A stretch of 64,000 bases of DNA from a bacterium (GTDB lineage Bacteria; ARS69). Below, piece by piece: positions 1-33,502 of the stretch; the stretch's first letter is position 1; every line of letters begins with the position of its first letter. The notes under the pieces are model-generated. The model ran no database searches. It had not been told where the DNA came from and saw nothing but the letters and a program-made list of their open reading frames with translations. Location of the stretch: positions 1-64,000 of the forward strand of contig JALGZR010000019.1 in NCBI GenBank assembly GCA_025774805.1, written 5' to 3'. The position numbers and the translations under genes were made by a program.

Positions 1-1
1 G

Positions 2-154
2 ATGCTGCGCAAGCTGATGAGCGAGGGCAAGCCGGTCCCCAAGGAGTTCTCCCGGCCGGAAGTCATCGCGGTCCTCAAGGAGTACTACGACTCCCTGGAG
101 GAGAAGGTGGAGGTGAAGCTGCACGGCGCGGCCACCGGAGACGCCAAGCGCTGA
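2..154 (+). CDS. sat: Sulfate adenylyltransferase, C-terminal fragment
   Basis: Last 50 residues of dissimilatory ATP sulfurylase, which activates sulfate with ATP to APS in the cytoplasm, the first step of sulfate reduction. The gene runs off the left window edge; the ATG at position 2 is an internal methionine, not a start. Visible are the family's C-terminal features LRKLMSEG, then FSRPEV, YYDSL and EKVEVK, which match the end of sulfate-reducer Sat proteins as I remember them. The neighbouring qmoABC supports this, although aprBA is not between sat and qmo here. Identification rests on a short tail but the motif order is distinctive. Confidence 0.88.
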
Positions 155-712: not shown

Positions 713-1975
713 ATGAACGCTGATGCAAAACCCATTCTCATAATCGGAGGGGGGATCGCGGGGATGACGGCGGCCGTGGAAGCCGCCGAGATCGGCTACC
801 GCGTTGTCCTCGTGGAAAAGGAACCTTTTCTCGGCGGGCGCGTGGTGCGCGTGCATCAGTACTTCCCCAAGATGTGCCCGCCGGCCTGCGGGTTCGAGAT
901 CAACGTTCGCAGGATCAGACAGAATCCGAGGATCACGGTGCACACGCTCGCCGCGGTAGAGGAGATCTCCGGCGAGGCGGGCAATTTCAAGGCCAGAATC
1001 CGAATACGCCCGAGGTACGTCACCGGCGAGTATGCGGTGGACGATTCCGTCGCTGCGCAACTGACCTCCGAGCGGGACAACGATTTCAACCTGGGCATGG
1101 ACAAGACCAAGGCGCTCTACATGCCGCACGACATGGCCTATCCGCACGTGCACGTCCTCGATCGGGACGCCCTGTCCGACGCCGACGCTGAGACGCTGAA
1201 GAATGCCTGTCCTCCCGGGGCCATCGATCTGGACATGACCGAGCGAGAGATAAGCGTCGACGTCGGAGCCGTCATCGTGGCGACCGGGTGGCGGCCCTAC
1301 GATGCCACCAAGCTCGACAATCTGGGGTTCGGGCAATACCCGAACGTGATCACCAACGTCGTGATGGAGCGATTGGCCGCCCTGGGGGGACCGACCGGAG
1401 GGAAGATCGTCCGGCCTTCCGACGGCAAGCCGGCGGATACCGTCGCGTTCGTACAATGTGCCGGCTCGCGCGACGAGAACCATCTCCCGTACTGCTCGGC
1501 GGTCTGCTGCATGGCCTCACTGAAGCAGGTCCGATTCCTCAGGGAGCAGAACGAGAAGTACAGGGCCACCGTCTTCTACATCGACATCCGGACCATCGGC
1601 TACCTGGAGAAGTTCTACTACGACATGCTGGAAGACGAGAATGTCTCGTTCACGAAAGGCAAGGTGGCCAAGATCAGCGAGGACGAGGCAAGCCACGACT
1701 TGTTGCTGGACGTCGAGGACACGCTGTCCGGTGAGATCCTACACGAGACCTTCGACATGGTCGTGCTCGCCACCGGGATCGTACCCAACACCGCCGACGT
1801 CAAGATCCCCTTCGAGCTGAAGTACGATCAGTATGGGTTCATCGATGGTTCCACGGACGTCGACGGCGTGTACGCCGCCGGCTGTGCCAAGCATCCGTGC
1901 GACGTTTCCCGTACGACAAAGGACTCGACTGCCGCCGCGCTGAGAGCGATTCAGTGCCTCAACAGGGGAAAGTGA
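713..1975 (+). CDS. qmoA: QmoA, HdrA-like flavoprotein of the quinone-interacting complex
   Basis: Soluble FAD subunit of QmoABC, which carries electrons from menaquinol to APS reductase (AprAB) at the inner face of the membrane. 420 aa, close to the usual QmoA size. GGGIAGMTAA at residues 12-21 is the FAD-binding Rossmann loop, with MCPPACG at 54-60. A Cys cluster with CAGSRD (249-254) and CSAVCC (261-266) is typical of HdrA-like proteins. A second FAD/NAD-type motif near the C terminus reads GVYAAGCAKHP. The start at 713 follows a GGGAGA purine stretch. qmoB begins four bases after its stop, so the genes are co-transcribed. Confidence 0.95.
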   Translation: MNADAKPILIIGGGIAGMTAAVEAAEIGYRVVLVEKEPFLGGRVVRVHQYFPKMCPPACGFEINVRRIRQNPRITVHTLAAVEEISGEAGNFKARIRIRPRYVTGEYAVDDSVAAQLTSERDNDFNLGMDKTKALYMPHDMAYPHVHVLDRDALSDADAETLKNACPPGAIDLDMTEREISVDVGAVIVATGWRPYDATKLDNLGFGQYPNVITNVVMERLAALGGPTGGKIVRPSDGKPADTVAFVQCAGSRDENHLPYCSAVCCMASLKQVRFLREQNEKYRATVFYIDIRTIGYLEKFYYDMLEDENVSFTKGKVAKISEDEASHDLLLDVEDTLSGEILHETFDMVVLATGIVPNTADVKIPFELKYDQYGFIDGSTDVDGVYAAGCAKHPCDVSRTTKDSTAAALRAIQCLNRGK

Positions 1976-1979
1976 TCTC

Positions 1980-4253
1980 ATGGCAGACAAGATCGGCGTC
2001 TTCATTTGCATCGGCTACGGAATCGCCGAAGCGCTCGATATCGAGGCGCTGTGCAAGGTTGCCACGGATGATCTCGATGTGCCGTTCTGCAGGACTGTGG
2101 AGTCTTGCGAGGGACCCGGTCTTCAAGCCATCAACGAAGACATCGCGAACGAGGGTCTGACCAAGGTGCTCGTCGCTGGAATCTCCCCCCGCCGTTATGC
2201 GCAGGGCGCTTTTGCCGATGGCGTGATCGTCGAGAAAGTCGGCCTGCGGGAGCAGGTGGTGTGGTGTCAGCCGCCGAACGAAGAGGACACGCAGATGCTC
2301 GCGGAGGACTATCTCCGCATGTACATCACTAAGCTGCAGAAGATGGAGCCGCTCGAGCCGTTTCAGTCGGAAGAACCCATCGACAAGAGCATCCTGGTGG
2401 TCGGCGGCGGGATCACCGGCATGACGGCCGCACTGGAGGCGGCCAAGGCCGGCTATGACGTCCACCTGGTCGAGAAGACCGACAAGCTCGGCGGCTGGCT
2501 GGCGAAGCAGCACAAATCCGTCCCGACGAGACCGCCGTATCGCGAGTTGGAGGAGACGGGTGTCGATGCGCTCGTGGCCGAGATCGAGGGGAACTCCCGG
2601 ATCAACGTGTATACGTCGGCCACGACCAGCGCCATCAAAGGTGCGCCGGGGCTCTTCGATGTGACGCTCGCGTCGAGTGGGAACGGCAAGCCGGCGGGAG
2701 AATCCCTGGCCACGCTCCGCGTCGGGGCCATTATCCAGGCGACCGGCTGGAAGCCGGCGGACCCCCGCGACCACCTGCCTTACGGCAAGCTCGAGGATGT
2801 TGTTCGCAACGTCGACCTGGAGGCCATGGTCAAGGAGGGCGGCCCCATCACACGTCCCTCCGACGGCAGAGAGGTGAAGAGCATCGCGTTCATCCAGTGC
2901 GGTGGCTCGCGGGCCAAAGAACTTCACTCGTATTGCTCTTCGATCTGCTGTCTCTCTTCGCTGAAGCAGGCCCTCTACCTGCGGGAGAGTGATGAGGAAG
3001 CCAAGGCGTACATCGTCTACGAGTTCATTCGGACGCCGGGTCAGTACGAGGACTTCTATCGCAGGGTCCAGGAAGATCCCGGCGTATTCCTGACCAAAGG
3101 GGAAGTGACCGACGTCACTCGCGATGAGGACGGGGGACTCGTCGTCACCGTCCGGAACACCATGCCCGGCGACCACGTGCAGGTGAAGGTGGACATGGTG
3201 GTACTGGCGGCAGGCATGGTGCCGAATGCCGCCGACGGGGAGGCCATCCGCGCGCTGGAGGATGCGAAGATCAAGGCCAAGGTAGGGGAGACGGAGGCTC
3301 AACGCGCTCAGGCTGCGGAGAAGGTGGAGGAGCTCAAGCATCACGAAGGCACGGAAATTCTCAATCTGCATTATCGTCAAGGGCCCGATCTGCCGAATCT
3401 CCAACACGGCTTTCCGGATTCGCATTTCATCTGCTTCCCTTACGAAAGCCGACGCACCGGAATCTACGCCGCCGGATGCGTGCGCCAGCCCATGGACGGC
3501 CTCGCAAGCAGAGAGGACGCGGCGGGGGCCGCGCTGAAGGCGATCCACTGTGTCGAGTTGACCTCCCGAGGAGAGGCGGTTCATCCGCGCGCGGGCGACA
3601 AGTCCTACCCCGATTTCTTCCTGCAGAGATGCACGCAGTGCAAGCGATGCACCGAGGAGTGTCCCTTCGGGGTACTCAACGAGGATATGAAGGGCACTCC
3701 GCTGCTGTGGGCAACGCGGTGTCGTCGCTGCGGGGTCTGCATGGGCGCCTGCCCCGAGCGAATCGTCTCCCTCAAGGATTATTCAGTGGAAATCGTGGCG
3801 TCCATGATCAAGGCGGTCGAGGTCCCGGACGAGATCGAGGAGAAGCCGAGGATCCTGGCACTGCTTTGTGAGAACGATGCCTTCCCGGCGTTGGACCTCG
3901 TGGGGCAGCACCGCCTGCGATGCAACCCTTACGTTCGCGTCATCCCCGTCAGATGTCTGGGTTCACTCAATCCCGTGTGGGTCTCGGAAGCCCTCTCGGC
4001 CGGATACGACGCGGTCCTGTTGATCGGCTGCAAGTACGGCGACGATTATCAATGCCACTTCATCAAGGGGAGCGAGCTGGCTTACACGCGCAGCGACAAC
4101 ATCAGAGAAAAGCTGGAGAAGATGGCCATGGAGAGCGAGAGGGTCGAGCTCCACCAGCTGCAAATCTCCGACTACGACAAGCTCCCCGAGATATTCGAAA
4201 ACGCTGCCAGAGTGATCGAAGAGATCGGCATGAACCCGTTCAAGGGAATGTGA
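1980..4253 (+). CDS. qmoB: QmoB, HdrA/MvhD-like flavoprotein
   Basis: Second soluble flavoprotein of QmoABC, thought to contact AprAB. 757 aa, as in sulfate reducers. The first 120 residues or so form a Cys-rich domain, followed by FAD-binding VGGGITGMTAA at about 141-151. An HdrA-type cluster CGGSRA ... CSSICC lies near 310-330. Two [4Fe-4S] ferredoxin motifs, CTQCKRCTEECP and CRRCGVCMGACP, lie near 550-595. The C terminus is an MvhD-like domain containing VRCLGSLNP and IGCKYGDDYQC. It follows qmoA by four bases and precedes qmoC. The fused MvhD-like domain distinguishes QmoB from QmoA. Confidence 0.95.
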   Translation: MADKIGVFICIGYGIAEALDIEALCKVATDDLDVPFCRTVESCEGPGLQAINEDIANEGLTKVLVAGISPRRYAQGAFADGVIVEKVGLREQVVWCQPPNEEDTQMLAEDYLRMYITKLQKMEPLEPFQSEEPIDKSILVVGGGITGMTAALEAAKAGYDVHLVEKTDKLGGWLAKQHKSVPTRPPYRELEETGVDALVAEIEGNSRINVYTSATTSAIKGAPGLFDVTLASSGNGKPAGESLATLRVGAIIQATGWKPADPRDHLPYGKLEDVVRNVDLEAMVKEGGPITRPSDGREVKSIAFIQCGGSRAKELHSYCSSICCLSSLKQALYLRESDEEAKAYIVYEFIRTPGQYEDFYRRVQEDPGVFLTKGEVTDVTRDEDGGLVVTVRNTMPGDHVQVKVDMVVLAAGMVPNAADGEAIRALEDAKIKAKVGETEAQRAQAAEKVEELKHHEGTEILNLHYRQGPDLPNLQHGFPDSHFICFPYESRRTGIYAAGCVRQPMDGLASREDAAGAALKAIHCVELTSRGEAVHPRAGDKSYPDFFLQRCTQCKRCTEECPFGVLNEDMKGTPLLWATRCRRCGVCMGACPERIVSLKDYSVEIVASMIKAVEVPDEIEEKPRILALLCENDAFPALDLVGQHRLRCNPYVRVIPVRCLGSLNPVWVSEALSAGYDAVLLIGCKYGDDYQCHFIKGSELAYTRSDNIREKLEKMAMESERVELHQLQISDYDKLPEIFENAARVIEEIGMNPFKGM

Positions 4254-4352
4254 GGGACGTGTAGCGGTTTATGGCGGTTTGCTGTTTGGGGGCGACTCAC
4301 GAGAGTGGCCGGAGGATGGACGGGGGTGGAAGCCGCCGAGGAGATTCCACAA

Positions 4353-5657
4353 GTGACACCGAAGACCCGAGCGCAGGAGAGCCTGCGGACGGCTCCTGCC
4401 CCACCGGAAGAAAGCGGTCCGGTCCGCCTCGAGCCGGATCTGGACTTCATTCGCGCGCTGCGCAAGCACGGCGTAGATGACTACAAGAAGTGCATGCAGT
4501 GCGGCACCTGCTCGGCGACGTGCGACCTGTCGCCGGATCACGAGCCCTTCCCACGTAAGGAGCTGGCCTGGGCCGTCTGGGGGATGAGAGACCGTCTGCT
4601 GCGGGACCCGGACGTCTGGCTGTGTCACCAATGCAATGACTGCTCGACGCGGTGCCCCCGCAGCGTCCGGCCGGGAAACATATTGGCCGCGGTCCGCCAG
4701 GAGGGCGTGCTGCACTATGCGTTCCCCCGTTTCCTGGGCCGATGGGTCAACCAGCCCGAGTGGCTGCCACTCTTGCTGGGCATCCCGATTGCGCTGCTCA
4801 CGCTCGCTCTCGTCTGGAAGGACCCGATCGAAAGTGCCCTGGGCATTTCGAGGCCAGCCGGCGACAGGATCCTGTACAATTACTCCAGTGTGTTCCCCCA
4901 CTGGATGCTGAACGCCTTCTTCGGCTTCTTCAGTCTCCTGGCTCTCGTCGCGATCCTCGTCGGGGTGGTGTGCTTCTGGCGTGCCATGAAGGTGGGTGTG
5001 CCGCCAGATCGAGTCGCCAACCTGGGCCGCGGCGTCGTCCCGAGCATCTTCACGACCATCAAGACGGTCTTCACCCACGACGACTTCGTCCAGTGCACGA
5101 GGGCCAGCCCGCGGTTCCTTTCCCACCTGTGCGTCTTCTTTGGCTTCCTGGCCCTGACGCTGGTCACGCTGTGGGTGATCACCGCCAGGTACAACCCCCT
5201 GATTCAAGGGGAGTTCATCTATCCCTTCGCCTTCTTGAACCCGTGGAAGATGCTGGCCAACGTGGGCGGTATCGCGCTCATCGCCGGCTTGCTCCTGATG
5301 ATTCGAGATCGTTTCAGGGACAGAGAGGATCTCGGCACGGGCTCCTACTTCGACTGGGCTCTGATCTCGAAGCTCCTGTTGGTGGCGATCACGGGATTCA
5401 TTACCGAGGTGTTGCACTACCTTCGCCTGGAGCCTCACCGACACATCGCTTACTTCGTACACCTGGCTTTCGTGTTCGCGATCTTGATGTACCTGCCGTA
5501 CTCGAAGCTCGCCCATCTGGCGTACCGTGCCACCGCTATGGTCTTCGCAGAGCACACCGGCCGACACGTGGCAGCGGCGTCTTCCGTGGCGAACAGCGGG
5601 CAGGCTCGTGGGGAAGAGGAAGGAGATGATGTCGGAAGAACCACTGCGGCGCCGTAG
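4353..5657 (+). CDS. qmoC: QmoC, membrane HdrC/HdrE-like subunit
   Basis: Membrane subunit that oxidises menaquinol and feeds QmoAB. The N-terminal HdrC-like domain has two [4Fe-4S] motifs, CMQCGTCSATCD and CHQCNDCSTRCP. The C-terminal half has about six hydrophobic helices with His residues, as in NarI/HdrE cytochrome b subunits. Start choice is uncertain: GTG 4353 has GAGGAG nine bases upstream and gives 434 aa, while GTG 4326 (behind GGAGG) and GTG 4305 are also in frame. The 3' end overlaps the next cytochrome gene by about 30 bases, so qmoC and the JOP-like genes appear translationally coupled. Confidence 0.92.
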   Translation: MTPKTRAQESLRTAPAPPEESGPVRLEPDLDFIRALRKHGVDDYKKCMQCGTCSATCDLSPDHEPFPRKELAWAVWGMRDRLLRDPDVWLCHQCNDCSTRCPRSVRPGNILAAVRQEGVLHYAFPRFLGRWVNQPEWLPLLLGIPIALLTLALVWKDPIESALGISRPAGDRILYNYSSVFPHWMLNAFFGFFSLLALVAILVGVVCFWRAMKVGVPPDRVANLGRGVVPSIFTTIKTVFTHDDFVQCTRASPRFLSHLCVFFGFLALTLVTLWVITARYNPLIQGEFIYPFAFLNPWKMLANVGGIALIAGLLLMIRDRFRDREDLGTGSYFDWALISKLLLVAITGFITEVLHYLRLEPHRHIAYFVHLAFVFAILMYLPYSKLAHLAYRATAMVFAEHTGRHVAAASSVANSGQARGEEEGDDVGRTTAAP

Positions 5658-6000
5658 AAGCGCTCTGATCGTGGCCGTTCCAGCGGTGATCCTGCTGGCT
5701 CCTCTCGGATACAGTGTCGTGTCCGCGCTGTTCGCCCGCGAGACCGTACCCTCTCCGACGTTTCTTGAGAGGCCTGACCCGATGTACGAGAACTGCGTCA
5801 AAGAGACGACGTACATGCGCTACCACCACTGGGAGCTGCTGAGGGCGGTCCGAGAGGAGGTCGTCCGCTACGGAGAGCGGGGGGAGATAGGCCTTCACAA
5901 GTGCATGGAATGCCACAAGAGTCGAGAACGCTTCTGCAATCAATGCCACGACGCCGTGAGTCTGTATCCGGACTGTTTCGGATGTCATTACTATCCATGA
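5626..6000 (+). CDS. DsrJ-like periplasmic triheme cytochrome c (Qmo-linked copy)
   Basis: 124-aa cytochrome with one N-terminal membrane anchor or uncleaved signal (about residues 12-36) and three CxxCH haem sites: CMECH 93-97, CNQCH 104-108 and CFGCH 117-121. The segment ENCVKETTYMRYHHWELL keeps the Cys (C57) that aligns with C46 of the second DsrJ in this window and, by family knowledge, with the unusual His/Cys haem ligand of DsrJ. The start is ATG 5626 or 5629, both beside AGGAG. It overlaps the end of qmoC. It is clearly a paralog of the dsrJ at 31181. Its position after qmoC is unusual and suggests a periplasmic branch for the Qmo complex. Confidence 0.85.
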   Translation: MMSEEPLRRRRSALIVAVPAVILLAPLGYSVVSALFARETVPSPTFLERPDPMYENCVKETTYMRYHHWELLRAVREEVVRYGERGEIGLHKCMECHKSRERFCNQCHDAVSLYPDCFGCHYYP

Positions 6001-6099
6001 GGACGCGAGTGTGTCTTGTTGCCTCGTTGCGACTGAACGAGAAGATCTTGGAGTCCAAGGGCCACAGAATGGAACAACCGTCCGGAGGGTAGGCGAAAG

Positions 6100-6840
6100 A
6101 TGGACAGAAGAGAGTTCCTGACAGCTACGGGTGGCGTGTTGGTGGCAGGAGGTTCCTCTGTCCATGCGGTCCGATTGCTGACCACGTCGAGCGTGAGCCG
6201 GACAGGCGCAAAAGGCCCGGCGACCAAACGCAAGTGGGGGATGGTCATCAATCTCAACAAGTGCCGGGAGGACTGTACAGCGTGCCTGGAAGCCTGCCGG
6301 GAAGAGAACAACGTGGCCTTCCACGGCGACAGCCGCTGGGACGTGCACTGGATCAGGAAAGTCACAGTCAGGAGCGAAAGCGCCGGCCAGATCACCGAGA
6401 AGCAGGTGCTGTTGCTGTGCAATCACTGCGACAGGCCGCCGTGCGCGCAAGTCTGTCCCGTGCAGGCCACCTACAAACGTGACGATGGCATCGTCATCGT
6501 GGATCACCACCGATGCATCGGATGCCGGTATTGCATGATCGCGTGCCCGTACAACGCACGGTATTTCAACTTGAAAGAAAGCGAGGAGTGGCCCAACAAG
6601 GAGTTTCCCAAGCGATCGCACGGGGTGGCCGAAGCCTGCACCCTGTGCACGCATCGCCTGGAGAGGAATCAACAGCCGGCATGCGTCGAAACCTGCGCGC
6701 GCAGGGGCTTTGGAGCTTTGACCGTCGGTGATCTGAACGATCCCGAGAGCGATGTTTCGAAGTTGATCGCGAGTCATTCGACCAAGCGGATCAGAGAGGA
6801 TCTCGGCACGGAGCCGAAGGTCCACTATATCGGCCTCTAG
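6100..6840 (+). CDS. DsrO-like Tat-exported ferredoxin (Qmo-linked copy)
   Basis: 246-aa periplasmic iron-sulfur protein of the NrfC/DsrO type. The N terminus MDRREFLTATGG is a twin-arginine-like signal. Four Cys clusters follow: CREDCTACLEACR, CNHCDRPPCAQVCP, CIGCRYCMIACP and CTLCTHRLERNQQPACVETC, predicting several [4Fe-4S] centres. It would relay electrons between the DsrJ-like cytochrome and the NrfD-like protein. The gene is about 100 bases after the DsrJ-like gene. Its TAG stop (6838-6840) coincides with the left CTAG end of a palindromic element. A paralog (dsrO) lies at 31564. Confidence 0.87.
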   Translation: MDRREFLTATGGVLVAGGSSVHAVRLLTTSSVSRTGAKGPATKRKWGMVINLNKCREDCTACLEACREENNVAFHGDSRWDVHWIRKVTVRSESAGQITEKQVLLLCNHCDRPPCAQVCPVQATYKRDDGIVIVDHHRCIGCRYCMIACPYNARYFNLKESEEWPNKEFPKRSHGVAEACTLCTHRLERNQQPACVETCARRGFGALTVGDLNDPESDVSKLIASHSTKRIREDLGTEPKVHYIGL

Positions 6841-6985
6841 CCCGGACTATTCATGAACGACCTGCTGCGATCGCGGATCCGCACCACCGGACGGGCGTCC
6901 TCGCGTCTCGCACCCTGCGACGTATCGTTCAGATACGACTCGGGTTCGAGATCTCGCGACGGCCCTTCATGAATAATCCGGGCTA
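6838..6985. repeat. Family A palindromic element, copy 1
   Basis: 148-bp element without coding capacity. The ends TAGCCCGGACTATTCATGAA (6838) and TTCATGAATAATCCGGGCTA (6966-6985) are inverted with one mismatch, and CTAG is present at both outer edges. The interior contains a CGTATC/GATACG hairpin. It is homologous over most of its length to 27189-27369, but lacks the right arm of an internal palindrome found there. It looks like a non-autonomous inverted-repeat element (MITE or BIME type). Confidence 0.85.
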
Positions 6986-6997
6986 GGAGAGGGCGAC

Positions 6998-8200
6998 ATG
7001 CAGCTCGAGTTCGAGAGGATCGAGGGAGGGTCAGTTCAATACCACGCGACGTTGACGATCCTGGCGGCGCTGGCCGTCGCGGGCGTGGTCGCCACGTGGT
7101 GGGTCTCCGAACAGGGGATCTGGGTGACGGGGATGAACAACCGGGTTCCCTGGGGCCTCCAGATCGTGATGGCCGTGTATTACATCGGGTTGTCGGCCGG
7201 GTCGCTCGTCATCTCCGGCTTGTACGGAGTCTTCGGAAAGGTGGAGTACAAGCCGTTCGCGAGAATCGCAGTCTATCTGGCGATGCTCTTCCTGATTGCC
7301 GGTCTGCTGTCGATCCTCACGGACCAGGGAAGGATGGACCGGGTCTTCGTCGAACCATTCGTCTACTTCAATCTCCAGTCGATGTTCTCGATCAATCCGA
7401 TCCTGTACATCGGACACATCCTGATCTGCGTGCTTTACCTTTGGGCGCTGTTCGAGGAGAGGAAAACGCTGACGAAGGTGGTGGCAACCGTCGCCTTCGG
7501 GTGGGCCTTCTGCGTGCACAGCGGCACGGGGGCGATCTTCGGCTTCGGAGCGCGCGTGCTGTACGAATCGCCCCTGCTGCCGGCGAGTTTCGTGGCGGCG
7601 GCCATGGCATCGGGCACCGCGCTAATGATCTTGGTGATCGTCGCCCTGTTCAGAATCACGAGGCGGCCGTTGGACGACGAGCTGGTGCTATGGCTCGGAC
7701 GGTTTCTGGCCGTGTGCATCATCGTGGTCGTGTACTTCCTGTTCATGGAGAACGCCTACCGAGTCTACGTCGTCGAGCTGCGCTATGCGGCGCTGTACTA
7801 TCTTTTCGATGGCCTTCACGGCTTCCTGTTCTGGGGTGGGCTCGTCATTGTCGGCCTGATCGTCCCCATGGCGATCCTCTTCATTCCCAGGACTGGCAAG
7901 TCGATTCGGTGGGTCGGCATCGCATCCGCCCTGGTGGTATTCGGTGTCCTGTGCGAGCGGTATGTGATCGTCATTCCCGGGCTGACACACCCGCCGGAGC
8001 TTTTTCCGGGCATGGAGGTCATCGGACTCCGAGAGGGAATCGTCGATTATTCGGTCAGTTTCGCCGAGATTGTCCAAGCTCTGGGTGTGCTGGGGGCCAT
8101 CGGTTTCCTGTTCGTCTGGGGTTTGAAAACTTTCAAACTGCTACCGACGGAGGCGCGGGCTGTGGTGCAGCCCGCCGCCGCCAAGGCTCCGGTTAGCTGA
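6998..8200 (+). CDS. DsrP/NrfD-like integral membrane protein (Qmo-linked copy)
   Basis: 400-aa polytopic protein of the NrfD/PsrC/DsrP family with about ten hydrophobic segments. It would interact with menaquinone in the membrane and exchange electrons with the DsrO-like ferredoxin. Motifs fitting the family include GLQIVMAVYYIGLSAGS in the second helix region, ENAYRVYVVELR, and a late loop GLTHPPELFPGMEV. The start at ATG 6998 is set by AGGAGAGG just upstream, which sits at the edge of the palindromic element. It is the last gene of the sat-side qmo-JOP cluster and a distant paralog of dsrP at 32345. Confidence 0.87.
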   Translation: MQLEFERIEGGSVQYHATLTILAALAVAGVVATWWVSEQGIWVTGMNNRVPWGLQIVMAVYYIGLSAGSLVISGLYGVFGKVEYKPFARIAVYLAMLFLIAGLLSILTDQGRMDRVFVEPFVYFNLQSMFSINPILYIGHILICVLYLWALFEERKTLTKVVATVAFGWAFCVHSGTGAIFGFGARVLYESPLLPASFVAAAMASGTALMILVIVALFRITRRPLDDELVLWLGRFLAVCIIVVVYFLFMENAYRVYVVELRYAALYYLFDGLHGFLFWGGLVIVGLIVPMAILFIPRTGKSIRWVGIASALVVFGVLCERYVIVIPGLTHPPELFPGMEVIGLREGIVDYSVSFAEIVQALGVLGAIGFLFVWGLKTFKLLPTEARAVVQPAAAKAPVS

Positions 8201-8361
8201 CACGAGTGGGGATCTCGAAGCATGGAGCCCAATTCCCTCTTTAAGAACGATTGCGGATACAGCATAGGCAGTCGCTCCGGTTCGAGAGGCGTGCCCACTA
8301 GTAACTCTATGGAACGTCGCGTTATACTTCACAATCGCTTTCGGTACACGAGGAGTGAGTC

Positions 8362-8811
8362 ATGCCCGAGGACAAAGAAGTCCTGATCATCGACGACAGC
8401 GAAGAGAACGTCGCCTTCATGCAGGAGATTCTCCAGGAGATGGGACTCCCGTCCCGGGTGGCCTGTAACGGGAAAGAGGGGATACAGGCGCTGCGGGAGA
8501 AGCGACCCGACCTTGTTCTGCTGGACGTCATGATGCCCCGCAAGAGCGGCTTGAAAGTCTTCCAGGAGATGAAGCGGGATCCCGAGCTCGAGAAGATCCC
8601 GATCATCATTGTCACCGGGCTCGGCGAGGTCACCGGCGTCGATATCGAGACGGGCCGGGAGGACGAGAAGGAGAGCTACCGGGACGACGTCGTACGTCGT
8701 TTCGGAGCGAGTCTTCGCAAGCAGCTTGCCGGTCTCACGCCAGACGGTTTGGTCGAGAAGCCGATCGATCCCCCGGAGCTCATGGGCAAGATCAGAGAGC
8801 TCCTGTCCTAG
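8362..8811 (+). CDS. Single-domain response regulator with an inserted segment (copy 1)
   Basis: 149-aa stand-alone receiver with no output domain. The acidic pair is D11-D12, the phospho-acceptor is D55 in LVLLDVMMPRKSG, and the conserved Lys is in VEKPIDPPEL. Between the Thr of IIIVTG and that Lys there are about 40 extra residues, including VTGV and ESYRDDVVRRFG, where normal receivers have a short stretch. GAGGAGTGAG precedes the ATG. It sits 20 bases upstream of a di-heme histidine kinase, its probable partner. A close homolog with the same insertion lies at 41020, also beside a di-heme kinase. Confidence 0.88.
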   Translation: MPEDKEVLIIDDSEENVAFMQEILQEMGLPSRVACNGKEGIQALREKRPDLVLLDVMMPRKSGLKVFQEMKRDPELEKIPIIIVTGLGEVTGVDIETGREDEKESYRDDVVRRFGASLRKQLAGLTPDGLVEKPIDPPELMGKIRELLS

Positions 8812-8831
8812 CACCGAGGTTTCCGGCGGAC

Positions 8832-10844
8832 GTGGCAGACCGGCGCCGGAGCCTTAGACCCGGAGCCCAGCCGGTGGCGAGCCGAGGCCGGAGCATCCAG
8901 TGGCGGATCATGGCGCGGCTGTTGCCGCTGCTGGCACTCGTCTTCGCCGCCGTGATGATCTGGCTGAGCACGGTCCAGCGAGACGCGCTCTACGCGAACA
9001 ACCTGGAAACCGTCCGGCGTGCGAGCCGCGCGACGGTCCGCGCCACCGACGTCTCGATGCTGAACGCGCAGGGAGATCATCCCTGGGACTGGCTGAGACC
9101 GAGGATCGAGACGCAAGAGGGTACCTGGATCCGGATTGTCGGCGCGCAGGGTCGGATGGCCTTCTCGAGCGACCCGACCGAGGTGGAAACACCTCCCGAT
9201 CTCGATGATTTTTCCTGCGCGCCCTGCCACGCGGGGAGGCCCGATCCGGTTCCCGCGACGGCCATCGTGCCGGGACCAGGTGGAGATCACTACCAGGTCC
9301 TGGCCACGCCCTTGCACAATCGCGATGAATGCCGTGTCTGTCACGAGGCGCAGGAACCGAACCTCGGAATCGTCCTGGTGGGTCAGAGCGTCGAACCGAT
9401 TCGCCGGGTCGTGCGGACCGTTCGGATCGGCATCGCCGTTGCTGTCGGGATCGCTCTGTTGCTGACGATCTTGACGACACGGATGGTGCTTGGTCGGCTG
9501 CTGGGCCGGCCTCTGCAAAGGCTTGTGAAGGGGGCGCGGTCGATCGGGGCCGGCGATCTCGGACAGCCGATCTATCTGGGTGAAACCACGGAGTTGACCG
9601 AGCTGGCCGACGCGCTGAACCTCTCGACATCGCGGCTGGCGGAAATGATCCACCGCGTGGAGCGGCAGCGCGACGAGTTCCGGACCCTGTATCACTTCAC
9701 CGATCAGATCAATCGCGCCGTTCGACCGGAAGAGCGCCGGCGCCGTGCCGTGGAGCTGGCGACCCAGTTCCTGGGAGCCGAGTGCGTCCTCGTCCAGGCC
9801 GACTACCAACCGGAGTCACAGACCGGACAGGGAACGATCACGCTCCGCGAAGCCGGAGGTTTCGAGGATCATCCGTTCCGGTTCGGCCCCGACGCTCAGG
9901 AGGGTGTCCCACCGTTCCTGAGCCGGATCATCGAGCGCTGGCTGAAGGGCGAGTTCGACGACAAGGCCATGGTGAAGGAAGGCTGGATCGAGGGCTACCC
10001 CGTGCAGCACGAGGGAGGGCAGCATCTGGGACTCCTTCTGCTACCGATTGACCGGTTCGGCGAAACGGAGCAGGTGCCGCCCGACCCCGACTTGGTTCGC
10101 GCGATGTGCCGTCACATCGCGATCGCGATCGAGTTCTCGGGGATGCAGACCGAGCTCGTCGGCCAGGAGCGCCTGGCGGCGATCGGAGAGACCATCGCCG
10201 GACTGGCGCACTGCCTGAAGAACGCTCTCAACGCGCTACGCGCGGGTCTGTTCATTACGGACCGCGCACTCGATGGAGACGACCCGGAGAAGCTCCGTCG
10301 CGGGTGGCGCATCACCAAGGTGGGGATCCGGCAGATCGAGGAGCTCAGCCTCGACATGCTCTACTACGTCAAGGAACGAAAGCCCGTGCGCAAACAGACG
10401 AATCCAAACGTAGTCGTCCGAAAAGTCATTGAATTGCTGAGCGAGACGGCATCCGAAAGAGACGTCCAGCTGCGCGTGGAGCTCGACGAGCAAGTCGGTG
10501 GTGAGCTGCTGGATCGCACCACGATCTACCGGGCAATCCTGAATCTCGTGACCAATGCGATCGACGCGTGCACCGAGTCGGAGACCGGGGATCTCGTGGT
10601 GGTGCGGACCCTCTCTACGCCGGACGGGATCGTGCTGACCGTCGAGGACAACGGCATCGGGATGACGGACGACGTCCGTTCCCGGCTGTTTACCCGCCTC
10701 TTCTCGACCAAGGGCGGCAAGGGAACCGGTCTGGGTCTCGCCGTGGTCAAGAAGATCGTGGAGGAGCACGGTGGATCCGTCGAGGTCGAGTCGACGCCGG
10801 GGCGCGGCTCGTCGTTCCAGATACGCCTGCCACGATCAAGCTGA
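8832..10844 (+). CDS. Di-heme sensor histidine kinase (copy 1)
   Basis: 670-aa membrane kinase. TM1 (about 27-47) and TM2 (about 198-219) bracket a periplasmic domain carrying two haem-c motifs, CAPCH (129-133) and CRVCH (167-171). A HAMP-like linker and a GAF-like region (about 278-430) follow. The phospho-acceptor region is GLAHCLKNALNAL (HxxKN rather than HExRN), and the HATPase has VTNAIDACTES, DNGIGM and GTGLGLAVVKK. The GTG start at 8832 has a weak ribosome site and may really lie about 15 codons downstream. Haem redox state or a ligand is the likely signal, but the signal is unproven. The gene at 41505 has the same plan without the GAF-like region. Confidence 0.88.
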   Translation: MADRRRSLRPGAQPVASRGRSIQWRIMARLLPLLALVFAAVMIWLSTVQRDALYANNLETVRRASRATVRATDVSMLNAQGDHPWDWLRPRIETQEGTWIRIVGAQGRMAFSSDPTEVETPPDLDDFSCAPCHAGRPDPVPATAIVPGPGGDHYQVLATPLHNRDECRVCHEAQEPNLGIVLVGQSVEPIRRVVRTVRIGIAVAVGIALLLTILTTRMVLGRLLGRPLQRLVKGARSIGAGDLGQPIYLGETTELTELADALNLSTSRLAEMIHRVERQRDEFRTLYHFTDQINRAVRPEERRRRAVELATQFLGAECVLVQADYQPESQTGQGTITLREAGGFEDHPFRFGPDAQEGVPPFLSRIIERWLKGEFDDKAMVKEGWIEGYPVQHEGGQHLGLLLLPIDRFGETEQVPPDPDLVRAMCRHIAIAIEFSGMQTELVGQERLAAIGETIAGLAHCLKNALNALRAGLFITDRALDGDDPEKLRRGWRITKVGIRQIEELSLDMLYYVKERKPVRKQTNPNVVVRKVIELLSETASERDVQLRVELDEQVGGELLDRTTIYRAILNLVTNAIDACTESETGDLVVVRTLSTPDGIVLTVEDNGIGMTDDVRSRLFTRLFSTKGGKGTGLGLAVVKKIVEEHGGSVEVESTPGRGSSFQIRLPRSS

Positions 10845-15797: not shown

Positions 15798-15799
15798 GC

Positions 15800-21069: not shown

Positions 21070-21080
21070 AGGAGGCTTCC

Positions 21081-22157: not shown

Positions 22158-22166
22158 GAGGCATGC

Positions 22167-22418: not shown

Positions 22419-22489
22419 GGCGGCAGTCGGGGGGGGCCGGCCCGCGCCGGCCTCGATGCTTGGGATCGCGACCGACAAGGGATGAGGTC

Positions 22490-28009: not shown

Positions 28010-28576
28010 ATGAACCGGCTCGACGGTCTGCAGGAGAGGCGGGCGGCGGTCATCGACCGCTGGAAGGCGCTGACGCTCGCGGTCTATCCGGAGCGTGCCG
28101 CGGAGTTCATCGTCCGGGAGCCCGACCGCTTCCGGAATCCGGTGGGCCACCTGGTGGGCGAGAACCTGGAGATTCTCTACGACGGCCTCCTCGCAGATGC
28201 GCCGGCGGAGACGATGCGGGCAGCGTTGGACGGCATCGTGCGCATCCGTGCGGTGCAGGACCTCTCCCCCTCAGCCGCGGTCGGGTTCGTCTTCCTGCTG
28301 AAGCAGGCCGTTTGCGAAGAACTGAGCGGGGGTGACGGCGATCCGGCCGCCGAGATCGAGCCCGCCGGGCTCTTCGATCGCATCGACCGGCTCGCGCTGC
28401 AGGCCTTCGACCTGTTCATGCGGTGCCGGGAGCAAATCTACGACCTTCGCGTGCGCGAAATTCGCGGCCGGGCGCCGAGGCCGCACACGTCACTCCGGGC
28501 GCGCGAGATCGAGGGGACGGAACGGTCCGGAAGCGAGTGGGCCGGTTCCGAGACCAAAGGAGAGGGAGCGGGATGA
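28010..28576 (+). CDS. RsbRD N-terminal-domain protein upstream of dsrM
   Basis: 188-aa cytoplasmic protein resembling the RsbRD N-terminal (RsbR-type sensor) domain: RRAAVIDRWKALTLAVYP, FRNPVGHLVGENLEILYDGL, then FVFLLKQAVCEELSGG. The start at 28010 has GGAGGAG upstream. Its stop overlaps the dsrM start (ATGA). To my knowledge a protein of this type often sits just upstream of dsrMKJOP in sulfate reducers, where its role is unknown; regulation or assembly of the complex is likely. The C-terminal 50 residues are polar and probably disordered. Confidence 0.78.
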   Translation: MNRLDGLQERRAAVIDRWKALTLAVYPERAAEFIVREPDRFRNPVGHLVGENLEILYDGLLADAPAETMRAALDGIVRIRAVQDLSPSAAVGFVFLLKQAVCEELSGGDGDPAAEIEPAGLFDRIDRLALQAFDLFMRCREQIYDLRVREIRGRAPRPHTSLRAREIEGTERSGSEWAGSETKGEGAG

Positions 28577-29565
28577 GGGCCATGATCGCCTTGCTCGCCT
28601 TGGCCGTGCTGCTCGGTGTGGTCTGGGCGGGAGTCGGCCTGGCTGGCCAGCGGACCTTGTTCGGAATCGTCATTCCCTACGTGGCCATTGCCGTGTTCCT
28701 GGTCGGCATGGTCTACCGGGTCCTGCTCTGGGCCGGGGCGCCCGTACCGTTCCGCATTCCGACGGTGTGCGGCCAGCAGCGCTCGCTGCCCTGGATGCGG
28801 CGGGACCCGCTGGAGAGCCCGAGCGGGACACTCGAGGCCGTCGGGCGGATGGCCGGCGAGATCCTGCTGTTCCGCTCGCTGTTCCGGAATACCCGCGTGG
28901 GGCTGAAGGGATCGGACCGCGTCGTCTACCACTCGGAGAAGCTCCTCTGGCTCGCCGCCCTGGCCTTCCACTGGTCCTTCCTCATCATCTTCGTGCGGCA
29001 CCTGCGTCTCTTCCTCGATCCCACGCCGAGTTTCGTCCATCTCATCGAGGTCGTGGACGGCTTCTTCCAGCTCAGTGTGCCGGTCTTCTTCCTCTCCGGC
29101 GGCCTGATCCTGGTCGCTCTGCTCTACTTGCTCGGGCGGCGCCTCCTGGATGCGCAGGTGCGCTACATCTCACTGCCGACGGACTACTTCGCGCTGTTCC
29201 TCCTGATCGGTGTCGTGGTCTCGGGCATCTTCATGCGCTACATCACCAAGGTCGATCTGCTCAAGGTGAAGGAGCTCTCCGTCGGCTTGACGACCTTCCG
29301 GCCGGCCCTGCCGGAGGGCATCGGCCTGCCGTTCTACATTCACCTCTTCCTCGTCAGTCTCCTCTTCATCTACTTCCCCTTCAGCAAGCTCGTCCACATG
29401 GGGGGAGTGTTTCTGAGCCCGACGAGGAATCTGGCGAACAACAACCGCAATCGGCGCCACATCAACCCCTGGAACCCCGAAGTGGAGGTACACACGTACG
29501 CCCAGTGGGAAGAGGAGTTCCGAGACAAGCTCGAGGCCTCCGGCATACCGTTGGATGGGAAGTGA
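28573..29565 (+). CDS. dsrM: DsrM, cytochrome b membrane subunit
   Basis: 330-aa NarI-like subunit of DsrMKJOP that exchanges electrons with menaquinone and passes them to DsrK. About six hydrophobic segments are visible; His-bearing helices include HWSFLIIFVRHLRLFLDP and FYIHLFLVSLLFIYFPFSKL, expected haem b ligand sites. The C-terminal cytoplasmic tail (RRHINPWNPEVE) is typical of DsrM. The start overlaps the preceding stop codon. dsrK follows six bases after its stop. Confidence 0.94.
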   Translation: MRAMIALLALAVLLGVVWAGVGLAGQRTLFGIVIPYVAIAVFLVGMVYRVLLWAGAPVPFRIPTVCGQQRSLPWMRRDPLESPSGTLEAVGRMAGEILLFRSLFRNTRVGLKGSDRVVYHSEKLLWLAALAFHWSFLIIFVRHLRLFLDPTPSFVHLIEVVDGFFQLSVPVFFLSGGLILVALLYLLGRRLLDAQVRYISLPTDYFALFLLIGVVVSGIFMRYITKVDLLKVKELSVGLTTFRPALPEGIGLPFYIHLFLVSLLFIYFPFSKLVHMGGVFLSPTRNLANNNRNRRHINPWNPEVEVHTYAQWEEEFRDKLEASGIPLDGK

Positions 29566-29571
29566 TCGGTC

Positions 29572-31188
29572 ATGGAGAAGTCGCCGCAGGAACTGCTTCA
29601 GCTTGACTACCACCCACCCCGGCGGGATTGGATGGATCCCGCCGTCGACTTCGAGGCCCGACGCGGGAGCTGGAGCTATCCCGGCGTCGGGAAGAACCTC
29701 AAGTACATGGGGTACGCCAACCCCCGGGAGTGGTCTCCCACCGATGACGATTGGAAGCTGCCCGACGGATGGCAGAAGATCCTCCACGAAGGTCTGAAGG
29801 AACGCCTCGGCAAGTACCGTTCCCTGCGGGTCTTCCTCGATTCCTGCGTGCGATGCGGCGCCTGCGCCGACAAGTGCCACTTCTACATCGGATCGGGGGA
29901 TCCGAAGAACATGCCCGTCCTGCGGGCCGAGCTGCTGCGCTCCGTCTACCGCAACGACTTCACGCTGGCGGGACGCATCCTCGGCCGGATCGCCGGCGTC
30001 CGCAAGCTCACCCCCGACATTCTCAAGGAGTGGTACTACTACTTTTTCCAGTGCACGGAGTGCCGCCGTTGCTCGGTGTTCTGCCCCTACGGCATCGACA
30101 CGGCGGAGATCACCATGTTCGCCCGGGAGCTTCTCAACCTCGTGGGACTGAACATCAACTGGGTCGTCGAGCCCGTGGCCAACTGCCATCGCACGGGCAA
30201 TCACCTGAACATTCCGCCGCACACCTTCAAGGACAACATCGAGTTTATCTGCGAGGAGTTGGAGGACGCCACCGGGATCAAACTGACGCCCCCCATTAAT
30301 CGCAAGGGCGCGGAGATTCTGTTCGTCGTCCCCTCGGCCGACTACTTCGCCGACCCCGGCATCTTCACCTTCATGGGCTACCTGCTGCTGTTCGAGCACA
30401 TCGGACTGGACTACACGTTGAGCGCCTACGCCTCCGAGGGCGGCAATTTCGGCCTGTTCACCTCCCACGATACCATCAAGCGGCTCAACTACAAGATCTA
30501 CGCCGAGGCTAAACGGCTCGGAGTGAAGTGGATCCTGGGCGGCGAGTGCGGTCACATGTGGAGGGTCCTCCACCAGTACATGGACACCATGAACGGTCCG
30601 GCGGACTTCCTGGAGCGTCCGGTCTCGCCGATCACCGGCACGCGTTTCGAGAATGCGGCCTCGACGCGGATGGTCCACATCTGCGAGTTCACGTCCGACC
30701 TGATTCACCAGGGCAAGCTCAAGCTCGATCCCTCGCGCAACGACCGCTGGCGGGTGACGTTCCACGACTCCTGCAACCCGTCCCGGGCGATGGGCCTCCT
30801 GGAAGAGCCGCGCTACGTGCTGCGGAACGTCTGCAACTACTTCCACGAAATGCCCGACAACACCATCCGGGAGCAGACCTTTTGCTGTGGTGGGGGCGCA
30901 GGGCTGGGAAACGACGAGAACATGGAGATGCGCATGCGTGGCGGGCTGCCGCGAGCCAACGCGGTCAAGTTCGTGCAGGAGAAGCACGGCGTGAACCTGC
31001 TCACGTGTGTCTGCGCCATCGACCGGGCGACCCTACCGCCCCTGATGGAGTACTGGGTCCCCGGGGTCGACGTGTCGGGCGTCCACGAGCTGGTGGGCAA
31101 CGCCCTGGTGATGGAGGGGGAGAACGACCGCAAGACGGACCTGCGTGGAAACGGCGCGAACGACGAGGAAGGAGGTCCCGATGCGTGA
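29572..31188 (+). CDS. dsrK: DsrK, HdrD-like catalytic subunit
   Basis: 538-aa cytoplasmic Fe-S protein thought to reduce the DsrC trisulfide. Ferredoxin motifs CVRCGACADKCH and CTECRRCSVFCP are followed by catalytic Cys-rich CCG-type regions: GGECGHMWR, FHDSCNPSR, QTFCCGGGAG and LLTCVCAIDR. These match DsrK, in which a special [4Fe-4S] centre performs disulfide chemistry. The end overlaps dsrJ by a few bases. The paralog at 15800 shares the plan but is divergent. Confidence 0.95.
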   Translation: MEKSPQELLQLDYHPPRRDWMDPAVDFEARRGSWSYPGVGKNLKYMGYANPREWSPTDDDWKLPDGWQKILHEGLKERLGKYRSLRVFLDSCVRCGACADKCHFYIGSGDPKNMPVLRAELLRSVYRNDFTLAGRILGRIAGVRKLTPDILKEWYYYFFQCTECRRCSVFCPYGIDTAEITMFARELLNLVGLNINWVVEPVANCHRTGNHLNIPPHTFKDNIEFICEELEDATGIKLTPPINRKGAEILFVVPSADYFADPGIFTFMGYLLLFEHIGLDYTLSAYASEGGNFGLFTSHDTIKRLNYKIYAEAKRLGVKWILGGECGHMWRVLHQYMDTMNGPADFLERPVSPITGTRFENAASTRMVHICEFTSDLIHQGKLKLDPSRNDRWRVTFHDSCNPSRAMGLLEEPRYVLRNVCNYFHEMPDNTIREQTFCCGGGAGLGNDENMEMRMRGGLPRANAVKFVQEKHGVNLLTCVCAIDRATLPPLMEYWVPGVDVSGVHELVGNALVMEGENDRKTDLRGNGANDEEGGPDA

Positions 31189-31573
31189 TCGAGGCGCGAT
31201 CTTCGCGGGGCTCGTCTTCTTCCTCGCTCTGGTCACCTATCCCATCTGGTCGGGCCTGGCGGCCGGCGAGGGCGGGGGGCCGCCGGAGCTGGTCCTCCCC
31301 CCCGAAGGGGAGAAGTGCGTGGAGGAAACGTCCGCCATGCGCACCGACCACATGCAGCTCTTGATGGAGTGGCGGGACGAGGTCGTACGCGACAACGACC
31401 GGATCTACACCACCGCGGACGGACGCCGTTTCTACAAGAGCCTCTCCGGGACCTGCATGAGCTGCCACGCCGACAAGGAGCAGTTCTGCGACCGGTGCCA
31501 CAACTACGTCGCGGTGACCCCCTACTGCTGGGACTGCCACGTCGAGCCCCCGGGAGGGCAGCGATGGGATTGA
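31181..31573 (+). CDS. dsrJ: DsrJ, periplasmic triheme cytochrome c
   Basis: 130 aa with an N-terminal membrane anchor (about 6-28) and three haem motifs: CMSCH 92-96, CDRCH 103-107 and CWDCH 116-120. C46 in EKCVEETSAMR is the conserved Cys associated with the unusual His/Cys haem ligation. AGGAGG precedes the ATG, inside the end of dsrK. It is the periplasmic end of the DsrMKJOP electron path. Its last codons overlap dsrO. Confidence 0.95.
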   Translation: MRDRGAIFAGLVFFLALVTYPIWSGLAAGEGGGPPELVLPPEGEKCVEETSAMRTDHMQLLMEWRDEVVRDNDRIYTTADGRRFYKSLSGTCMSCHADKEQFCDRCHNYVAVTPYCWDCHVEPPGGQRWD

Positions 31574-32337
31574 AGAGGAGAGCGTTCTGCAGGCTCGCCG
31601 GACTCGGCACGCTGGGGATGGCCGGAGTTCCGGCCGGCCGCGCACTCGGGGAGAAACCGCGGTCCTCGCCGGAGGACGTGAGAGAGCCGATCCTGGGCAA
31701 GCGGTGGGCCATGGTCGTCGATCTGCAGGCGTGCCGCAAGAAGGAGGGCTGCCGGGACTGCATCGCCGCGTGCCACGAGGCCCACAACGTTCCCGACCTC
31801 GGCCATGAGAAGCACGAGGTGAAGTGGATCTGGAAGGAGCCGTACGCGGAGGCGTTCCCCAACCAGCACCACGACCACATGCCGCACCACATGCAGCACG
31901 AGGCGACGCTGGTCTTCTGCAACCACTGCGACGAGCCGCCCTGCACGAGGGTCTGCCCCACGCAGGCCACCTGGAAGCGCGAGGACGGCATCGTGATGAT
32001 GGACTGGCACCGGTGCATCGGTTGCCGCTACTGCATCGTGGCCTGCCCATACGGTTCGCGCAGCTTCAACTGGCGGGATCCCCGACCCTACATCGAGGAG
32101 ATCCGCCCCGATTTCCCCACCCGGAGCCGCGGCGTCGTGGAGAAGTGCACGTTCTGCGACGAACGCCTGTCCAAGGGGCGACTTCCGGCGTGCGTGGAGG
32201 CCTGTACGACCCGCTGCCTCGTCTTCGGCGACCTGGAGAACCCGGACTCGGAAGTCCGAAAGCTCTTGGCCACGCGTCACGCCATTCGTCGGAAGCCCGG
32301 CCTGGGCACCGGGCCCGAAGTCTACTACCTGGTATGA
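31564..32337 (+). CDS. dsrO: DsrO, Tat-exported ferredoxin
   Basis: 257-aa periplasmic Fe-S subunit linking DsrJ and DsrP. The N terminus MGLKRRAFCRLAGLG is a twin-arginine signal. Cys clusters are CRKKEGCRDCIAACH, CNHCDEPPCTRVCP, CIGCRYCIVACP and CTFCDERLSKGRLPACVEAC. A His-rich insert (HHDHMPHHMQH) lies before the second cluster and is absent from the Qmo-linked paralog at 6100. It overlaps dsrJ by ten bases. Confidence 0.95.
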   Translation: MGLKRRAFCRLAGLGTLGMAGVPAGRALGEKPRSSPEDVREPILGKRWAMVVDLQACRKKEGCRDCIAACHEAHNVPDLGHEKHEVKWIWKEPYAEAFPNQHHDHMPHHMQHEATLVFCNHCDEPPCTRVCPTQATWKREDGIVMMDWHRCIGCRYCIVACPYGSRSFNWRDPRPYIEEIRPDFPTRSRGVVEKCTFCDERLSKGRLPACVEACTTRCLVFGDLENPDSEVRKLLATRHAIRRKPGLGTGPEVYYLV

Positions 32338-32344
32338 GGTGACT

Positions 32345-33502
32345 ATGCTGGAGAAGGCGTTCTCGGGAGGTCGCAGATACTGGGGCTGGATCGGCTTCCT
32401 GCTGCTGGTGGTGGCCGCCGGCGGCTACTCCTACCTGCACCAGCTCGGTCACGGCCTGGGGATCACCGGCTTGAGCCGGGATGTGACCTGGGGCTTCTAC
32501 ATCGCACAATTCACCTTTCTCGTCGGCGTGGCGGCCTCCGCGGTGATGGTGGTCTTGCCCTACTACCTGCATGACTTCAAGGCCTTCGGACGGGTCGCGA
32601 TCCTCGGAGAGCAACTGGCCATCGGGTCGGTGATCATGTGCGTGCTGTTCATCACCGTCGATCTCGGGCAGCCGGGCCGCATGGTCAACATGCTGCGCCA
32701 CCCGTCGCCGCGCTCGATCCTGTTCTGGGACATGATCGTTCTCAACGGCTACCTGCTGCTCAACGTGATCATCTCGCGCGTGAGCATGAACGCGGAGCGC
32801 AACCGCACGCCGCCCCCCGGGTGGATCAGGCCGGTGATCCTGCTCTCGATCCCCTGGGCGCTCAGCATCCACACCGTCACGGCGTTCATCTACTCCGGAC
32901 TCGCCGCACGGCCCTTCTGGATGACGGCGATCCTCGCCCCGCGATTCCTGGCCTCGGCCTTCTCGTCCGGCCCGGCACTGCTGATTCTCCTCTGCCTGGT
33001 GCTCAGGCGATTCACGCGCTTCGACGCCGGCTGGGACGCGATCCAACAGCTGGCGGTGATCGTGACCTACGCCGTCCTGACCAACGTCTTCTTCGTTCTG
33101 ACGGAGTTCTTCACGGCCTTCTACAGCGCCATTCCCGAGCACGTGGAGCACTTCCGCTACCTCTACCTGGGATTGGATGGGCACCACGAGCTGGTGGCCT
33201 GGATGTGGCTTTCGGCCGCTCTGATCATGGTCGCCGCGGTGATCCTGGTGAACCCGGGAACGCGGCGGGCGAAGACGCCGTTGACGTTCGCCTGCATTGC
33301 AGTGGTCGCCTCGATCTGGATCGAGAAGGGCCTCGGCATGATCGTGACCGGTTTCGTGCCGTCTCCCCTGGGCAAGGTGACGAGCTACGCTCCGACGATC
33401 CCCGAGGTGTTGATCACGCTGGGCATCTACGCGGGCGGTGCGCTGGTCGTCACCATGCTCTACAGAATCACCCTATCCCTCCGGGGTGAGTTGCGAACCT
33501 GA
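32345..33502 (+). CDS. dsrP: DsrP, NrfD-type membrane subunit
   Basis: 385-aa polytopic membrane protein (about ten helices) of the NrfD family, the second quinone-interacting subunit of DsrMKJOP. Recognisable stretches are SRDVTWGFYIAQFTFLVGVA, IPWALSIHTVTAFIYSGLAA, VEHFRYLYLG and TGFVPSPLGKVTSYAPTIPE. ATG 32345 is preferred over GTG 32339 because GAGGTG lies upstream at the right distance. The flavoprotein gene follows 11 bases later. Confidence 0.95.
   Translation: MLEKAFSGGRRYWGWIGFLLLVVAAGGYSYLHQLGHGLGITGLSRDVTWGFYIAQFTFLVGVAASAVMVVLPYYLHDFKAFGRVAILGEQLAIGSVIMCVLFITVDLGQPGRMVNMLRHPSPRSILFWDMIVLNGYLLLNVIISRVSMNAERNRTPPPGWIRPVILLSIPWALSIHTVTAFIYSGLAARPFWMTAILAPRFLASAFSSGPALLILLCLVLRRFTRFDAGWDAIQQLAVIVTYAVLTNVFFVLTEFFTAFYSAIPEHVEHFRYLYLGLDGHHELVAWMWLSAALIMVAAVILVNPGTRRAKTPLTFACIAVVASIWIEKGLGMIVTGFVPSPLGKVTSYAPTIPEVLITLGIYAGGALVVTMLYRITLSLRGELRT

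Follow-up and report, generated by a model that had tools for sequence, protein, structure and literature searches.

On the 64,000-nucleotide stretch of DNA analysed here (the window), the genes qmoABC (713–5657, plus strand), which encode the electron-supply complex of APS reductase, are followed on the same strand by genes for a triheme DsrJ-like cytochrome, a Tat-exported DsrO and a 10-helix NrfD protein, the last ending at position 8200. These three products (J, O and P in the following) recall the periplasmic arm of the sulfite-reduction complex DsrMKJOP, and the locus raises the question of whether they join QmoABC in a single complex. An earlier note on this DNA proposed as much and knew of no described Qmo complex with JOP subunits; full-text literature searches likewise found no paper describing one, which for a large survey of Dsr and Qmo proteins (PMC10504309) applies to its main text, which distinguishes two Qmo types, mentions DsrO homologues whose neighbourhood is unclear and draws no Qmo-JOP link. 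Our analysis suggests that the qmoABC-JOP cluster encodes an undescribed kind of respiratory complex, joining the electron-supply complex of APS reductase to the periplasmic haem-and-quinone module of the sulfite-reduction complex.

Gene content and order of the cluster

The window comprises bases 1–64000 of contig C105 from a metagenome-assembled genome (MAG) of 5.1 Mb in 284 contigs, whose phylum is represented in the collection by only five genomes. Window position 1 is the first base of the contig and lies within the last 50 codons of sat. The continuation of qmoABC into J-O-P described in the earlier note was recovered with all its parts in place (Table 1). The ATG start of J at 5626 lies 32 nt before the qmoC stop (5657), with AGGAAGGAG upstream of the start. 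Gaps of 99 nt and 157 nt separate J from O and O from P, and a search for terminator-like sites from qmoC to P of the window gave none. The single qmoA copy found in the MAG encodes a protein with 67–78% identity to the QmoA of other clusters of the stand-alone type described below versus about 44–62% to canonical QmoA, and QmoB combines two 4Fe-4S sites, an FAD domain and a C-terminal MvhD/FlpD domain.

Table 1. Features of the window in and around the qmo-JOP cluster and the canonical dsrMKJOP genes
Feature	Position	Strand	Evidence
sat (ATP sulfurylase), C-terminal end	1..154	+	72% identity over 50 residues to Sat C-terminus in L048
qmoA, stand-alone QmoAB type	713..1975	+	HdrA-type flavoprotein score
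qmoB	1980..4253	+	HdrA-type; Pfam FlpD, Fer4, FAD; stand-alone QmoB clade
qmoC, J-linked type	4305..5657	+	NF038018, 377 bits (cut-off 300)
J, DsrJ-like membrane-anchored triheme c-type cytochrome	5626..6000	+	NF038038, 64 bits (cut-off 100)
O, DsrO, Tat-exported ferredoxin	6100..6840	+	NF045797, 284 bits (cut-off 200)
Repeat element in O-P gap	6838..6998	+	26-bp inverted ends, multicopy in genome
P, NrfD-family integral membrane subunit, ~10 helices	6998..8200	+	Pfam NrfD, 165 bits; 88 bits on DsrP (cut-off 350)
Response regulator, single-domain	8362..8811	+	Response_reg
HAMP sensor histidine kinase, periplasmic part with two CxxCH	8832..10844	+	HAMP, HATPase_c
Canonical reductive-type dsrMKJOP	28573..33502	+	DsrM 494, DsrJ 156, DsrO 295, DsrP 458 bits, all above cut-offs

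J carries one N-terminal membrane anchor (residues 14–32), three CxxCH motifs and the extra conserved cysteine of DsrJ (Cys57, in CVKET), and it shares with DsrJ the residues C57, M64, H68, R76 and R81 besides the three haem motifs. On the curated DsrJ model (NCBIfam, cut-off 100 bits) the qmoC-linked J proteins score 43–96 bits, the window J thus falling below, and canonical J proteins 124–162. O has an RREFL Tat motif and 16 invariant cluster cysteines, corresponding to four [4Fe-4S] sites. P of the window scores 88 against the 350 bits of the reductive DsrP model and falls in a separate clade at 99–100% support; its membership of the NrfD family follows from the Pfam match (165 bits) and from about 10 helices in an AlphaFold model. 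The closest fold to this model, whose mean pLDDT of 70 makes its details unsafe, is ActC of alternative complex III (ACIII; TM 0.72), with PsrC also among the closest folds. P is a putative second quinone site. A sequence search for solved-structure relatives of J and P found none.

A canonical DsrMKJOP is encoded separately at 28.6–33.5 kb, as the earlier note had it: DsrM, J, O and P all pass their cut-offs, and dsrK lies at 29572–31188. Two further observations concern the region before it. A second, divergent DsrM/DsrK-like pair (26–27% identity) occupies positions 14829–17410, between the qmo-JOP cluster and dsrAB, and at 19846–24692 dsrAB-dsrD occurs together with a DsrL-like gene (22962–24692), an unusual combination on record for some Acidobacteria and Ignavibacteria.

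Occurrence in other genomes

With two J-linked QmoC sequences as queries, a search through a single genome for each species returned 80 qmoC loci. The earlier note had held that absence of the arrangement from any related genome would speak against it; the neighbourhood comparison found J directly downstream of qmoC in 17 of 87 compared loci, that is, in the window and 16 others. The remaining 70 had no multi-CxxCH gene within 1.5 kb, where sequence was available. By record titles, the qmoC-J loci come from at least five phyla (Acidobacteriota, Planctomycetota, Gemmatimonadota, candidate division LCP-89 and the window's own phylum). Full J-O-P was read in 13 loci (the window, L047, L051, L052, L053, L055, L056, L057, L062, L063, L064, L066 and L257); in L054, L058 and L061 a contig end truncates the cluster, and L070 has J and neither O nor P. 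The strand is always shared, and in the 11 loci measured J overlaps qmoC or sits within 63 nt of it. In a draw of 396 genomes from an Acidobacteriota collection, P of the qmo-linked type was found in four, all already among the known loci.

Since the same order recurs at 16 other qmoC loci, it is not due to chance, and their inclusion of the scaffolded chromosomes CP070666, CP070812 and CP070717 rules out an assembly artefact. Relocation of JOP from a broken DsrMKJOP was also ruled out, as 16 of the 18 genomes with JOP encode a canonical DsrJ separately. In L062, ORFs that seemed fused proved by tblastn to be out-of-frame artefacts.

Phylogeny of the subunits

The qmo-linked proteins form clades apart from the reductive DsrJ (100/100), DsrO (100/98) and DsrP (100/100), which rules out a recent copy of the local DsrJOP. 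The trees included one oxidative-type (rDsr) JOP sequence, from G146, a genome of the Acidobacteriota collection with a dsrMK-L-J-O-P-N cluster in the oxidative-type arrangement (L282); further oxidative-type JOP sequences were sought in plasmids and viral contigs, where none were found. P is sister to this oxidative-type DsrP (100/99) and O tends likewise, less clearly (91/90), while the tree with the oxidative-type J was too divergent for J to be placed. The second DsrJOP-like set of the earlier note is therefore present as J-O-P and is no plain copy of the local DsrJOP, given these affinities of P and O and the scores of J and P below the cut-offs.

All 17 J-linked QmoC form one clade (support 100/98), whose sister clade is JOP-less and includes second copies from the same genomes. 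The QmoB of the same loci fall into two distant groups, 13 from stand-alone clusters together and four from integrated clusters among canonical QmoB. Because QmoC is one clade and QmoB is in two groups, QmoC and JOP travel together while QmoAB has been exchanged, and the simplest reading of the trees is that QmoC-JOP is a cassette combined with two QmoAB lineages. The nearest JOP-less relative of the stand-alone QmoB group is that of L091, where (531–10392) sat-aprBA is followed by stand-alone-type QmoAB (77–80% identical to the window) and a plain QmoC without JOP, the reverse combination of modules. An apparent swap of arm parts was seen in L059 (9992–12889), in which J-linked QmoC and J are followed by O and P matching reductive DsrO and DsrP.

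A signature loop in QmoC

Positions 371, 374, 377 and 379 of QmoC are H, R, P and R in 17 of 17 J-linked sequences, whereas JOP-less QmoC have R371 (67/67) and A379 (66/67). The hydropathy of QmoC indicates six helices, with residues 371–380 between TM5 and TM6, beside the haem ligand candidate H386. Provided that the N-terminal Fe-S domain is cytosolic, this loop is predicted to be periplasmic and is where a periplasmic arm would dock; being a feature of a single clade, the signature may reflect ancestry rather than docking, as shared descent alone could fix these residues. The Fe-S cysteines C63, C66, C69, C73, C107, C110, C113 and C117 are conserved in all 84 sequences, as are the candidate haem b histidines H274, H386 and H404, with H258 in 83 of 84. 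Together, the four residues and the J clade are simple markers for finding the variant in metagenomes.

Genomic settings and the APS reductase genes

The J-linked clusters occur in two settings. Thirteen, including that of the window, stand alone and have a distinct QmoAB type. A sensor kinase homologue lies beside 12 of these 13, with CxxCH motifs in eight of the 12 (at residues 129 and 167 in the window), usually accompanied by a single-domain response regulator; kinase and response regulator alone recur, and no other conserved soluble enzyme gene was found with the stand-alone clusters. Four integrated clusters (L056, L059, L064 and L070) lie inside an apr-qmo-sat-dsr superoperon and have canonical QmoAB, with aprBA immediately upstream of qmoABC-J in L056, L059 and L070 and with the set of L064 lying within qmo-JOP-sat-dsrC-dsrMK.

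Two QmoC above the cut-off were found in 11 genomes, each with at most one full AprA, and in the resolved cases the sole AprA neighbours the JOP-less Qmo. The link to APS reduction drawn in the earlier note thus holds only indirectly for the stand-alone clusters, the window's among them, since the sole aprBA usually adjoins a second, JOP-less Qmo. In the window genome one Qmo was found and aprA was not found in the MAG, where sat ends 558 bp upstream of qmoA; a missing contig is a likely cause, because the contig ends in sat and relatives have sat after aprBA-qmoABC. Nor was aprA seen in CP070812, but the upstream region there contains a 100-N gap, so that absence is not implied.

Several neighbouring arrangements were recorded besides. 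In most loci compared, aprA and qmoA are separated by two small conserved genes (13094–14200 in L052), one for an Ogr/Delta-like zinc finger and one for a CxxCxxCC zinc- or iron-chelating domain. L068 (10004–13591; Acidobacteria, Zodletone) encodes a QmoC from the JOP-less clade, followed by O and a divergent P (42%) and by no J, and the same genome has a complete qmoABC-JOP (L257). The window contains, at 41020–43028 beyond the dsr cluster, a second response regulator (54% identity to its counterpart by qmo-JOP) together with a second c-haem sensor kinase (63%); a duplicated signalling pair is thus found near both JOP-bearing complexes of the window.

A proposed six-subunit Qmo variant and its alternatives

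What was observed is the gene content and order, their conservation, the joint inheritance of QmoC and JOP, the signature in the QmoC loop and the presence of JOP in addition to DsrMKJOP; we consider it rather probable that these reflect a six-subunit Qmo variant with a periplasmic J-O-P arm and a second quinone site, serving AprAB. The Qmo complex with JOP subunits put forward in the earlier note has gained from these data: the gene set is real, comes on top of DsrMKJOP, recurs in several phyla and goes with a QmoC clade of its own that has a signature in the predicted periplasmic loop, as expected for such a complex. By analogy with established Qmo, QmoAB at the cytoplasmic face would exchange electrons with AprAB, and QmoC would pass them via its Fe-S centres and two b haems to membrane quinone. 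The J-O-P arm, built like that of DsrMKJOP and presumably docked on QmoC in the assembled complex, would offer the triheme cytochrome and the four-cluster ferredoxin as periplasmic relays and P as a second quinone-binding, possibly ion-translocating NrfD subunit; it would serve wherever electrons have to pass between the AprAB reaction and the periplasm. AprAB is the probable partner because aprBA lies upstream of qmoABC-J in three of the integrated clusters and the fourth set lies inside qmo-JOP-sat-dsrC-dsrMK.

Compared with QmoABC type I of Desulfovibrio, Archaeoglobus and Chlorobaculum, QmoA, QmoB and QmoC are all present, QmoC exceeds the curated cut-off, and the four candidate b-haem histidines and the Fe-S cysteines are kept; different are J-O-P after qmoC, the J-linked QmoC clade with its new loop signature, and the separate clade of stand-alone QmoAB. 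With DsrMKJOP the cluster shares a cytosolic Fe-S part, a di-haem b membrane subunit and the J, O, P arm in the same gene order. It differs in the scores of J and P, which do not reach the DsrJ and DsrP cut-offs, in the additional presence of a full canonical DsrMKJOP and in the lack of a DsrK (CCG) catalytic subunit, with QmoABC in the place of DsrMK; here the earlier note, in which QmoAB replaces DsrMK, needs correction, as the whole of QmoABC rather than QmoAB alone would take that place. The oxidative-type DsrJOP of G146 resembles the set in its sister P, in the tendency of O and in similarly low DsrJ and DsrP model scores, and is linked to dsrMK-L-N instead of qmoABC. The dsrOhPh-tetrahaem locus of cable bacteria likewise has an O-P-like pair and a periplasmic multihaem cytochrome outside the dsr operon, but the cytochrome is tetrahaem and not a DsrJ-type triheme, qmo linkage is absent and P is near reductive DsrP (PMC13047784).

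The conserved linkage is also compatible with two separate complexes expressed from one operon, J-O-P then being a quinone/periplasm oxidoreductase of its own, transcribed together with qmoABC and coupled to it only by electron exchange through the quinone pool. NrfD/NrfC pairs are highly modular, and OP-type modules stand alone elsewhere, for example in the cable-bacteria locus (PMC13047784); moreover, the arm is not strictly indivisible, as L070 has J without O-P and L068 has O-P without J. Yet J follows qmoC immediately and often overlaps it, residues specific to JOP-linked QmoC are fixed in a predicted periplasmic loop, and JOP co-segregates with QmoC and not with QmoAB, so that we regard an independent oxidoreductase as rather unlikely. 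JOP as an alternative arm for DsrMK, or for the orphan DsrMK-like pair at 14829–17410, placed near qmoC by chance, is highly improbable: this second pair does lack a JOP of its own in the window, but in other loci JOP is unlinked to an orphan pair, the canonical DsrMKJOP is complete, and JOP follows qmoC in at least five phyla.

A different doubt concerns the partner. QmoABC-JOP could be a real complex in which stand-alone QmoAB serves some other cytosolic flavoprotein or disulfide enzyme and plain Qmo serves AprAB, given that the sole aprBA of stand-alone genomes adjoins the JOP-less Qmo. That both Qmo types occur in 11 genomes, never with more than one full AprA and usually with it beside plain Qmo, would fit such a division, as would the distinct clade of stand-alone QmoAB and the type II Qmo of unclear role on record (PMC10504309). 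The integrated clusters, however, place JOP-type QmoC by aprBA, L091 places stand-alone-type QmoAB by aprBA, and the stand-alone clusters bring along no other conserved soluble enzyme gene, which makes a non-AprAB partner an unlikely reading. We therefore retain the six-subunit variant serving AprAB as the preferred one.

Such a complex would bear on energy conservation by sulfate reducers at the APS step and on the role of JOP in DsrMKJOP, and would mark the arm as a portable module attachable to another Hdr-like core. Qmo with and without JOP in one cell offers a natural comparison for the contribution of the arm.

Direction of electron flow

The earlier note suggests that the complex could drive an uphill step from menaquinol to APS. 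The potentials of menaquinone and of the APS/sulfite couple are close, about −75 and −60 mV; there is thus no evident need for strong uphill driving, and electron flow the other way is no less plausible. With odds only slightly better than even, we favour oxidation of sulfite to APS, or else reversible operation, on the grounds that P belongs to the oxidative DsrMKJOP lineage and that many of these genomes have a separate plain Qmo beside aprBA and sat. The c-haem sensor kinase, the redundancy with plain Qmo and the haem-copper oxidases in 13 of the 19 genomes searched point the same way, and Sat-AprAB-Qmo running in reverse has been proposed (PMC13047784). In the other six of these 19 genomes no haem-copper oxidase was found, and five of the six have J-linked Qmo, which weakens a role in aerobic oxidation. 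For the reductive direction speak these JOP genomes without haem-copper oxidase, the dsrAB and dsrD of the window and some relatives, and the integrated cases with JOP-Qmo as the sole Qmo.

Tentatively, QmoABC-JOP may be a transmembrane APS reductase:quinone/cytochrome oxidoreductase in its own right, occurring in at least five phyla and often beside an ordinary Qmo. It would let organisms with reductive-type Dsr run AprAB in the sulfite-oxidizing direction (or reversibly) under a c-haem sensor kinase, as a second Qmo dedicated to the pathway's reverse half; this wider proposal is possible rather than probable. A Qmo with a JOP arm would also bear on the direction in which the pathway runs in uncultured Acidobacteriota, Gemmatimonadota and Planctomycetota, a direction that tends to be guessed from the genes present.

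A repeat element between O and P

A multicopy repeat of the genome fills the 157-nt gap between O and P; it has inverted ends of 26 bp and folds as a strong hairpin. About 150 bp long, it is present in the window genome in tens of copies, full or partial, and the O-P gap in relatives measures 2–24 nt, which makes the repeat a late local insertion specific to the window genome. Within the window, one copy lies inside the JOP set (6838–6998) and another just upstream of dsrC (27187–27369).
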